Positions 29,816-53,106 of a DNA stretch of 53,106 nt are shown piece by piece (the first letter of the stretch is position 1; the number at the start of each line of letters is the position of its first letter). Origin of the DNA: an uncultured bacterium (lineage in GTDB: Bacteria > Cyanobacteriota > Vampirovibrionia > Gastranaerophilales > Gastranaerophilaceae). Under the pieces are notes generated by a model. The model was not told the DNA's origin, ran no database searches, and saw only the letters and a list, made by a program, of their open reading frames with translations. The translations under genes were made by a program, and so were the position numbers. The stretch lies in assembly GCA_902774905.1 (NCBI GenBank), contig CACYKF010000009.1, positions 1-53,106 of the forward strand, read 5' to 3'.

Positions 29816-29947
29816 TAAGTAAGTTGGGCTTTCAGCCCAACTAAATAAATGTTGGGGTAGAAACCCCAACTTACGATTGTCGTGTCGCAAACAATGATTG
29901 CTCACTGCGTAAAGGTCGGGATTACCCTCACCCGTATTTTTTAAATG
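29816..29947. repeat. Composite repeat: two GTTGGG hairpins plus CAAACAATGATTGCTCACT block
   Basis: The hairpins GTTGGGCTTTCAGCCCAAC and GTTGGGGTAGAAACCCCAAC (29823-29872) are arranged as at 366-417. They are followed by CAAACAATGATTGCTCACTG and CGTAAAGGTC, then TACCCTCACCCGT, which recur in inverse orientation at about 46152-46212. Confidence 0.75.

Positions 29948-31439: not shown

Positions 31440-31440
<1 letters not shown>
31403..31440 (-). terminator. Hairpin directly after tRNA-Arg
   Basis: Arms AAATAAGACAGAAT and ATTCTGTCTTATTT form a perfect 14-bp stem with a 10-nt loop; on the minus strand it begins at the tRNA 3' end and could stop its transcript. Confidence 0.65.
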
Positions 31441-31513
<73 letters not shown>

Positions 31514-31525
31514 TCAAACTCTTTG

Positions 31526-31541
31526 CATAAACTATATTATC
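31526..31541 (-). promoter_or_regulatory. GATAATATAGTTTATG upstream of tRNA-Arg
   Basis: This 16-mer, read on the minus strand, ends 12 nt before the tRNA and contains TATAGT and GATAAT as -10 candidates. The identical 16-mer is part of both terminal inverted repeats of the element at 45818-46245. Confidence 0.45.
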
Positions 31542-44955: not shown

Positions 44956-45765
44956 TTAAAAGAAAAATAACATCGCAAAAATCATATCCCAAATAACTAT
45001 TGAGATAAATGACCATACGACCGCTTTTGTAGTGGCAAGCCCGACACCTTTGGCTCCGCCTTTTGCAAAATATCCGCAGGTACAACTTATAAGCGCAATT
45101 GTTCCGCCAAAAACAGCGGCTTTTGTAAGGCATACCCACAAATCTTTCATATATAAACCTAACCAGACAGATGTAAAATATGCCCTGTATGAAAGACCGG
45201 AGAAAATATTTGAAGCCACACCGCCTAAAATTACTCCGAAAACAGATGCAATAATTACTATAACAGGCATCATAATTATACCGGACAGCACCCTTGGTGT
45301 AAACAAATGTCCGACAGAATCAACACCCAAAACATCAATGGCATCAATCTGCTCTGTTACCCTCATTGTAGCAAGTTCGGATGCCAAAGATGAACCTATC
45401 ATTGATATAATGGCAAAACCTGACATTATAACACCGACTTCCCTGACGGTTAAAATAGTCATCAGCATACCAATTAAGCCTGAACCGCCTTGTTTTACCA
45501 TCTCATTTGCAACTTGCGACGATACAATAATTGAGGTCATTCCGACAATTGAAAGAGTAATCGGTAATGAACTTATGCCAAATCTTTCACACTGAACAAA
45601 AAGTTCTCTAAACTGAACTCCGTCAATAAAAATTCGTTTGGTCATCCTCAGTCCCATTTGAGCAATCTGACCAATAGTAGAAATAAAATGTTTTGTCTCT
45701 AAACCCAATGACGAAAACACTTTATAAGTTGCGGATTTTTTCCAATATTGTGCAATCGTAAACAT
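44956..45765 (-). CDS. MlaE-like ABC transporter permease
   Basis: This 269-residue membrane protein has the MlaE pattern: an amphipathic N-terminal helix, five hydrophobic helices and the conserved segment ELATMRVTEQIDAIDVLGVDS with PRVLSGIIMMPVIVI near residues 130-165. It would move phospholipids or related lipids between the membranes with MlaF. MlaF starts 14 nt after its stop. Confidence 0.92.
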   Translation of the reverse strand: MFTIAQYWKKSATYKVFSSLGLETKHFISTIGQIAQMGLRMTKRIFIDGVQFRELFVQCERFGISSLPITLSIVGMTSIIVSSQVANEMVKQGGSGLIGMLMTILTVREVGVIMSGFAIISMIGSSLASELATMRVTEQIDAIDVLGVDSVGHLFTPRVLSGIIMMPVIVIIASVFGVILGGVASNIFSGLSYRAYFTSVWLGLYMKDLWVCLTKAAVFGGTIALISCTCGYFAKGGAKGVGLATTKAVVWSFISIVIWDMIFAMLFFF

Positions 45766-45777: not shown

Positions 45778-45817
45778 CCACAGTTTGTCTGTTGTGAAAA
45801 TAAAAACAATAAGTATT

Positions 45818-46245
45818 TACATAAACTATATTATCGGTAGTCATTGAGAGATTAAAACTTTCTACCTGTTCACTTTTCTTTTTGATTGCGATGCAAAAAG
45901 AAAAGTGAACCGAAAAGAAAAACACGCTAAGGAACAATACCGCCTTCAGCGGTATAAGACTGCTGACGCAGTAATATGCGTTTTTGCCTGTCGGCAAAAA
46001 TCTCTTAGCGCGCCTAAAACTACGGCGCGCATTAACCCCTCACCCCTACCCCTCAGCCATACGGCATACAGGCTCACGCAACTCACAAGTTCGTTGGTTC
46101 GCTTTGTATCCCCTTGGGAGAGGGTAGTTTTTCAATGCGAAGTATAAGCATTAGAAAAACGGGTGAGGGTATATACAGACCTTTACGAAGTGAGCAATCA
46201 TTGTTTGTTTGTTTCATCAAAACTACCGATAATATAGTTTATGTA
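45818..46245. mobile_element. Structured non-coding element with 24-bp terminal inverted repeats
   Basis: The 24 bases at 45818-45841 (opening TACATAAACTATATTATC) are the perfect inverted complement of those at 46222-46245. Inside lie successive hairpins: CACTTTTCTTTTTG/CAAAAAGAAAAGTG (45869-45909), ACCGCcttcaGCGGT, ACTGCtgacGCAGT, TTTTTGCCtgtcGGCAAAAA and GCGCGCC/GGCGCGC. The right half adds the CCTTGGGAGAGGGT repeat module and the block shared with 29882-29945. No protein of credible length is encoded. It has the size and ends of a MITE, but no transposase or target duplication is visible, so the mobile label is an inference. Confidence 0.55.
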
Positions 46246-46253
46246 TATAAAAA

Positions 46254-46283
46254 ACAAACGGATTATCTTTAATCCGTCTGTTT
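46254..46283 (-). terminator. Terminator of cobO
   Basis: Arms ACGGATTA and TAATCCGT form a stem extended by ACA/TGT; on the minus strand it runs into GTTTTTTAT about 24 nt past the cobO stop. Confidence 0.75.
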
Positions 46284-46306: not shown

Positions 46307-46840
46307 CTAATATTCAATACCCTGTCTTGCCATAACACCAATATCAAAATAGTGCTTGATAGGCTTCATTTCAGTAACCAAATGAGCCATAGCAATAAGT
46401 TCAGGGTGCGCATAACGACCTGTTAATACAACTTCAAGATTTTCAGGCTTATGCAACAAAACATCTTTAATATCGCTGACTTTAATCATATTCATAGCGG
46501 TACAAATATTTATTTCATCCAAAATAACAAGTTGATATTCGCCTGAATTAATAGCCTCTTTTGCTTTTTCCCAACCTTTTTTTGCTTCTTTGTAGTCCTC
46601 TAAACATACATTGTGAGAATAACAAACTCTGTCCATTCCAAATTGGATTACTTCCAAATTTGGTAAAAATTTTGATGATGAAAGCATTTCACCATAAGTT
46701 GTCGCACCGTCACCTTTTGTAAACTGAATAACCAAAACTTTCCAGCCATGACCTAATGCACGCAAAGCAAGACCTAATGCTGCTGTTGTTTTGCCTTTTC
46801 CATCCCCGGTATAAATTTGTATATAACCATGCTCTAACAC
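46307..46840 (-). CDS. cobO: Cob(I)alamin adenosyltransferase, CobO/BtuR family
   Basis: This 177-residue enzyme adds the adenosyl group to cobalamin or its precursors. It has YIQIYTGDGKGKTTAALGLA with the P-loop near residue 14, and LVILDEINICTAMNM near 108 as in BtuR. The start is GTG at 46840, 8 nt after GGAGG. It is a single gene, without other cobalamin genes and without a recognisable cobalamin riboswitch upstream. Confidence 0.93.
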   Translation of the reverse strand: MLEHGYIQIYTGDGKGKTTAALGLALRALGHGWKVLVIQFTKGDGATTYGEMLSSSKFLPNLEVIQFGMDRVCYSHNVCLEDYKEAKKGWEKAKEAINSGEYQLVILDEINICTAMNMIKVSDIKDVLLHKPENLEVVLTGRYAHPELIAMAHLVTEMKPIKHYFDIGVMARQGIEY

Positions 46841-48053: not shown

Positions 48054-48122
48054 TCCCTCGACCATTGGGAGAGGGTGGAATTTCAAAACGAGGTACGAGT
48101 TTTAGAAATTCGGGTGAGGGTT
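48054..48122 (+). repeat. GGGAGAGGGT repeat module abutting dtd
   Basis: CCATTGGGAGAGGGTGGAAT, then AATTTC..GAAATTC arms and a closing GGGTGAGGGT. The closing GAGGG lies 5 nt before the dtd ATG and serves as its ribosome binding site. Confidence 0.7.
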
Positions 48123-53018: not shown

Positions 53019-53106
53019 CTTATGATATATTTTGTCATTGCTGAACATGGCAGGCAATTAGTTACATGTTTTGTACATAAAAAATATTATGAGAATATCT
53101 CGATAA

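Follow-up and report, generated by a model that had tools for sequence, protein, structure and literature searches.

A non-coding element between mlaE- and cobO-like genes of a Gastranaerophilales genome, probably an invertible cassette of a dispersed family with dif-like ends

The element studied here occupies positions 45818–46245 of a 53,106-nt stretch of DNA from an uncultured bacterium of the Gastranaerophilaceae, the whole of which is called the window below. It lies 3′ of a cobO-like gene and 52 bp upstream of the start codon of an mlaE-like gene, and both genes are on the minus strand and read leftward, so that the divergent and convergent neighbours described in the first-pass annotation were an error. 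The features of the site, together with the beginning of another family member at the end of the window, are as follows.

44956–45765, minus strand: mlaE-like permease gene (PF02405), downstream of the element
45814–45841, minus strand: left 28-bp dif-like Xer site
45814–45824: outer XerD-type arm of the left site, TATTTACATAA on the plus strand
45825–45830: spacer of the left site, ACTATA
45831–45841: inner XerC-type arm of the left site, TTATCGGTAGT
45842–46221, no strand: non-coding cassette interior
45868–45910: hairpin module 1, with a 17-bp perfect stem
45937–45955: hairpin 2, ATACCGCCTTCAGCGGTAT
45959–45972: hairpin 3, ACTGCTGACGCAGT
45981–46000: hairpin 4, TTTTTGCCTGTCGGCAAAAA
46008–46030: hairpin 5, GCGCGCC...GGCGCGC
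46036–46169: CCCCTCACCC...GGGTGAGGG module, with separate copies elsewhere, a shorter one at window 48062–48121
46222–46249, plus strand: right 28-bp dif-like Xer site, in inverse orientation to the left site
46222–46232: XerC-type arm of the right site, ACTACCGATAA
46233–46238: spacer of the right site, TATAGT, the reverse complement of the left spacer
46239–46249: XerD-type arm of the right site, TTATGTATATA
46258–46277: terminator-like hairpin between cobO and the element; its leftward reading ends in GTTTTTT right at the element edge
46307–46840, minus strand: cobO-like corrinoid adenosyltransferase gene (PF02572), upstream of the element
53074–53106, plus strand: start of another family member, TACATAA-AAAATA-TTATGAGAATATCTCG..., within which the contig ends

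Both ends of the element consist of TACATAAACTATATTATCGGTAGT (45818–45841 on the plus strand and 46222–46245 on the minus strand, 0 mismatches), and the perfect 24-bp inverted ends claimed earlier were thus borne out at their exact coordinates; the inverted repeat reaches 28 bp at 96% identity (45814–45841 and 46222–46249, one mismatch). The 22-base inner part of TACATAAACTATATTATCGGTAGT has no further occurrence within the window, the chance expectation from shuffles being none. The interior also agrees with the earlier description of at least five serial hairpins and further repeat modules that no protein fits, as five hairpins at 45868–46030 are followed by the CCCCTCACCC...GGGTGAGGG module, and just two open reading frames (74 and 80 aa) are found inside the element, neither giving a plausible protein. 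Each strand of the element folds much more stably than dinucleotide shuffles do, with z values of −12.3 and −12.1. The GTTCA...GAAC hairpin (45868–45910 and its copies) occurs in at least five stem versions, in which the pairing is almost always perfect and the loop is variable. Interior modules also stand alone, without dif-like ends, at window 48062–48121 (GGGTGAGGG type) and at 29824–29944, where a GTAAGTTGGG... palindrome is accompanied by a module fragment. Further, a solo dif-like core, TGCATAA-ACTATA-TTAT, adjoins a tRNA-Arg gene (31440–31513) at window 31524–31540, and its spacer is identical to that of the element at 45818–46245.

Copies of the ends, which the first-pass annotation had proposed to search for, are present elsewhere in the genome of origin and in its relatives. 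In that genome (1.99 Mb, 51 contigs) the element gave 81 blastn matches, and its ends gave 28 matches with up to 3 mismatches (0 for the reversed control) or 38 in a search with a looser core. Matches to the element were found in 17 of the 40 genomes searched, the genome of origin counted, mostly within the same genus. The element therefore belongs to a set of dozens of short non-coding cassettes found in Gastranaerophilales-type genomes from the rumen. They are 0.2–0.6 kb long, non-coding and palindromic, stand alone at dozens of chromosomal sites, and combine a small number of end modules with interior palindromes in mosaic fashion. A terminator-like hairpin lies directly before 7 of 76 cassette ends, orthologues included, compared with 0.9% of control positions. 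The genomes sampled are drafts, in many cases MAGs (G002 has a listed contamination of 8%), and many contigs, that of the window among them, end inside family copies, so that some end pairings rest on separate contigs. We found no literature describing such repeats in Melainabacteria/Gastranaerophilales, or MITEs with dif-like ends.

Read outward, the ends of the window element have the form ACTACCGATAA-TATAGT-TTATGTAWAWA, in which six bases separate an 11-bp arm that finishes in ATAA from one that opens with TTAT. This is the layout of an Xer/dif site, where 6 bp stand between two 11-bp arms bearing ATAA and TTAT on their inner sides, and work on Acinetobacter identifies the ATAA-central-TTAT motif as what decides XerC/XerD binding and cleavage (PMC11705084). 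Across 76 cassette ends, the consensus is aaTACCGATAA-N6-TTATGTAAAtA. These arms agree in both half-sites with those of the likely dif of the host, for which the consensus is cATaCCgATAA-TATATA-TTATGTAAA, and the spacer alone differs; none of the cassette ends examined has the spacer TATATA.

The candidate dif, CCNATAA-TATATA-TTATGTAA, is present in 49 of 60 genomes of the order, at about one copy each, when up to 3 mismatches are allowed. Its distance from the cumulative GC-skew maximum is 30 kb in G061 and 39 kb in G005, where it falls on the skew plateau. In G000 it lies at about 21199–21223 of contig C7 (the L145/L146 junction), inside an mnmC-like gene whose homologues are L489–L518. In 22 homologues, gathered by the downstream protein alone without use of the motif, the codons TTA CAT AAT ATA TAT TAT are near-invariant, with one L codon and one Y residue deviating, whereas for conserved residues elsewhere in the gene the commonest codon is used 71% of the time. 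A previous codon test on genomes chosen by the motif was discarded as circular. The reading of TACATAATATATATTATAGGTA as a mere coding stretch (LHNIYY) of the mnmC-like gene was overturned by the nearly single copy, the skew position and the codon fixation at the DNA level. Based on the codon invariance and the skew position, the TATATA-spacer site inside the mnmC-like gene is therefore very probably the dif of the order. A dif within a conserved protein-coding gene, with six LHNIYY codons frozen at the DNA level, is unusual.

The spacers vary from locus to locus, and within a locus they match. Among 40 element pairs picked regardless of spacer (two of them false), 32 had an identical spacer at both ends, compared with a mean of 4.2 and a maximum of 13 in 10,000 shuffles. 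Taken by genome, matching was found in 9 of 10, 8 of 11, 7 of 7 and 8 of 10 pairs in four genomes (P ≤ 0.00015 each). The two ends of a pair agreed in only 57% for the inner arms and 40% for the outer flanks. In published pdif inversions, the 6-bp spacers involved are the same or nearly so (PMC13141974).

The site of the window element was then compared with that in G002 and G015, which have 96% identity to the window over cobO. Flanks and outer arms are nearly unchanged in both, while the interiors all differ among the three species, and the whole element measures 428, 456 and 378 bp; in G002 the cassette has the orientation of the window with different modules, and in G015 it is inverted and has still other modules. 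Ends unique to this site and a sequence kept constant among relatives, the outcome that would have told against the first-pass view, were thus not observed. Clean two-ended inversion between sister species was found at five loci (the mlaE/cobO site, L012, L007/L057, L026/L235, and L230 versus G002), and unchanged orientation at about nine; the comparable loci are few and orthologous loci are not independent. At L012, G000 has the flipped form, and G049 and G002 are concordant. At L026/L235, the outer-arm mutation TACATAG keeps its flank when unrelated inner ends are exchanged, which places the crossover within the spacer plus TTAT, that is, within 10 bp. At L007/L057 and L026/L235, the inner sequences have little or no homology outside the 17-bp core. 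The inversions are unlikely to stem from assembly errors, as the repeated core (17–28 bp) does not reach the length of a read.

No promoter-like site was found within the window element, and the mlaE promoter-like sequence, TTTTCA-17-TATAAT at 45800–45772, lies outside it; flipping is therefore unlikely to switch mlaE by promoter movement, and no sign of gene switching through flipping was seen at the mlaE/cobO site. By default, the family is viewed as a tolerated or selfish repeat that draws on the recombination system of its host.

With regard to the recombinases, G000 encodes two full-length Xer-type proteins of 290 and 304 aa, with XerD and XerC as their best NCBIfam hits; the scores of both fall just short of the XerC/XerD equivalog cut-offs and exceed that of the general subfamily. 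Counterparts of both were found in the six genus genomes tested. The cassette carrier G049 has solely these two Xer recombinases and one phage-type integrase. Based on these gene contents, XerCD would be the most economical catalyst of the inversion.

The site anatomy, the matched spacers, the inversion in place with a crossover in the site core and the interior replacement are all established by comparison, and we consider it probable that the window element belongs to a dispersed, MITE-like family of invertible non-coding cassettes that XerCD recombines at their dif-like ends. In the window element, the XerC-type arms face inward and the XerD-type arms outward, with one 6-bp spacer common to both ends; XerC and XerD would catalyse its inversion. 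The spacer match would be required for recombination, so that each locus would recombine mostly with itself. No copy seen has the TATATA of the likely dif; a spacer in common with it would be expected to produce large rearrangements. The interiors were probably traded between copies, either by Xer exchange at equal-spacer loci or by homologous recombination in shared modules. L203 and L204 of G002 (contig C26, spacer AACATA at both, 61 kb apart) have their flanks joined crosswise in G015 (C13:35903–36141 and C8:14880–15147), a rearrangement that breaks at the cassettes; a 61-kb inversion between them was not accepted as proof of inter-locus Xer recombination, as the G015 junctions are degraded, and it stays a hint. 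A broader proposal, whose chances we judge to be about even, is that a selfish family has taken over XerCD/dif, with dozens of cassettes per genome that flip, swap contents and avoid recombination with dif, continually reshuffling the intergenic landscape and perhaps spreading thereby.

How the family spreads is a separate matter, as inverted Xer sites give no account of it. Three loci are filled in G049 only, the element being absent in three or four relatives, and no dif-like arm was found at these empty sites in the relatives, which suggests that both ends arrive with the element. TA stands at the outer edges of most cassettes, but the empty sites do not display it as one lone copy. Target duplications, which the first-pass annotation had suggested looking for, could not be established, as none was readable from any empty site read; a TA duplication as proof of IS630-type transposition was rejected because the empty sites give no sign of it. 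The losses seen, at L012 in G015 (which reads T8-GTAAGG), L216 in G002 and L217 in G000, resemble small-homology deletions, those at L216 and L217 lying at ATAA or TATGT microhomology and leaving a solo site. Solo sites as ancestral targets with half-site duplication are not needed, and relatives are filled at L012 and L216. No transposase-enclosing element was found among the loci read. Both a transposase acting on the ends and Xer-mediated integration are possible routes of spread.

The strongest competing explanation is that of an ordinary composite MITE, moved in trans by a TA-targeting transposase of the IS630/Tc1-mariner type, whose orientation changes by homologous recombination between the ends or by reinsertion. 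Such an origin would fit the multiple copies of 0.2–0.6 kb, the non-coding content, the inverted ends with TA at most outer edges, and the lineage-specific-looking insertions at the three loci of G049. However, no target duplication was readable at an empty site, and no transposase-enclosing element was found among the loci read. Neither transposition nor recombination over 17 bp would be expected to give locus-specific matched spacers, or a crossover confined to 10 bp where inner homology is lacking, and the arms are those of the likely dif of the order. We therefore regard this origin as unlikely. The composite MITE named in the first-pass annotation is nevertheless apt as a description of a multi-copy, non-coding mosaic with inverted ends; it fits less well for the ends themselves, which behave like matched Xer-type sites and not like transposase termini.

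A local tyrosine invertase is a considerably weaker candidate. Two tyrosine recombinases of FimB/FimE size (181 aa) are encoded in G000 and could be local actors, the dif likeness then being a half-site style common to tyrosine recombinases. However, G049 is without such a protein, yet has cassettes and shows inversion differences, G022 and G017, where the element gave no match, encode small proteins of a similar kind, and the arms fit the likely dif in both half-sites. We place slightly less weight still on hairpin-templated correction, that is, quasi-palindrome repair that would match the ends, with orientation changes as rare homologous events and no dedicated recombinase. The elements are strongly palindromic, internal stems are perfect across several versions, and solo-site deletions at microhomology exist, all as such correction would have it; but the process itself produces no DNA inversion, and of some 14 loci that could be compared among close species, five show clean inversion, with little or no inner homology past the core at L007/L057 and L026/L235. 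The structured RNA locus (an sRNA or cis-regulatory RNA bounded by repeats) that the first-pass annotation had also offered has a negligible probability, because the extreme folding stability that would speak for it is equal on both strands, as palindromes have it, the interior is swapped and inverted at one site between sister species, no promoter-like site lies inside, and an Rfam search gave no match at the gathering score, the best hits falling so far below that they were set aside as noise.

Xer recombination is usually viewed as a guardian acting at one chromosomal site; phages and islands take advantage of it at dif, and gene modules do so on plasmids. If the preferred reading of XerCD-recombined cassettes is true, XerCD can serve many chromosomal loci at once, the cassettes offer a measure of Xer activity along the chromosome, and a class of MITE-like palindromic repeats is tied to site-specific recombination. 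The matched, locus-specific spacers further predict both orientations within one population, of which, if mixed, a MAG displays one form only.

Several known systems resemble the cassettes in part. IMEX use host XerCD and dif-like sites and integrate at dif with directly repeated ends; both are accessory DNA with dif-like sites, but the cassettes are dispersed, have inverted ends and do not qualify as IMEX. In phase-variation switches run by tyrosine or serine recombinases, an invertible segment likewise lies between inverted sites with cores matching per locus, whereas the flipping segment at the window site bears no promoter or gene. MITEs and composite palindromic repeat families are also short, non-coding, multi-copy and mosaic inside with inverted ends; the cassettes differ from them in their dif-like ends with locus-specific matched spacers and in inverting in place. 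The pdif and chromosomal dif modules of Acinetobacter likewise have 28-bp XerC/XerD sites in inverse orientation at their borders, with an ATAA-N6-TTAT core, recombine at equal or near-equal spacers, invert, and get replaced at fixed sites (PMC13141974, PMC12907356, PMC11705084). The window site shares with dif modules the segment between two inversely oriented Xer sites, but its interior is non-coding, whereas dif modules contain genes for resistance or toxin-antitoxin systems and are located mostly on plasmids or in module islands; moreover, adjacent Acinetobacter modules have common sites, and the cassettes here each own a matched-spacer pair.

A scan of GTDB genomes with the window arms and a free spacer also returned single dif-like sites in unrelated phyla (e.g., Nocardia and Arthrobacter). 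In Ectobacillus panaciterrae DSM 19096, about 20 copies of TACATAA-N6-TTATCGGTAGT, with mostly TCAGTG as spacer, form another multi-copy dif-like family (L377, L378, L392, L398, L404, L410, L411, L414, L425, L427, L431 and others). Many viral contigs have a common dif-like site with the spacer GTAACC in the conserved context TATTTCCCGAAAGTCTTGTTTACATAAGTAACCTTATCGGTAGT (L440, L441, L443–L445, L447, L448, L450, L451, L454, L455, L457, L458, L460, L461, L463 and L464), which is possibly the attachment site of Xer-using phages.
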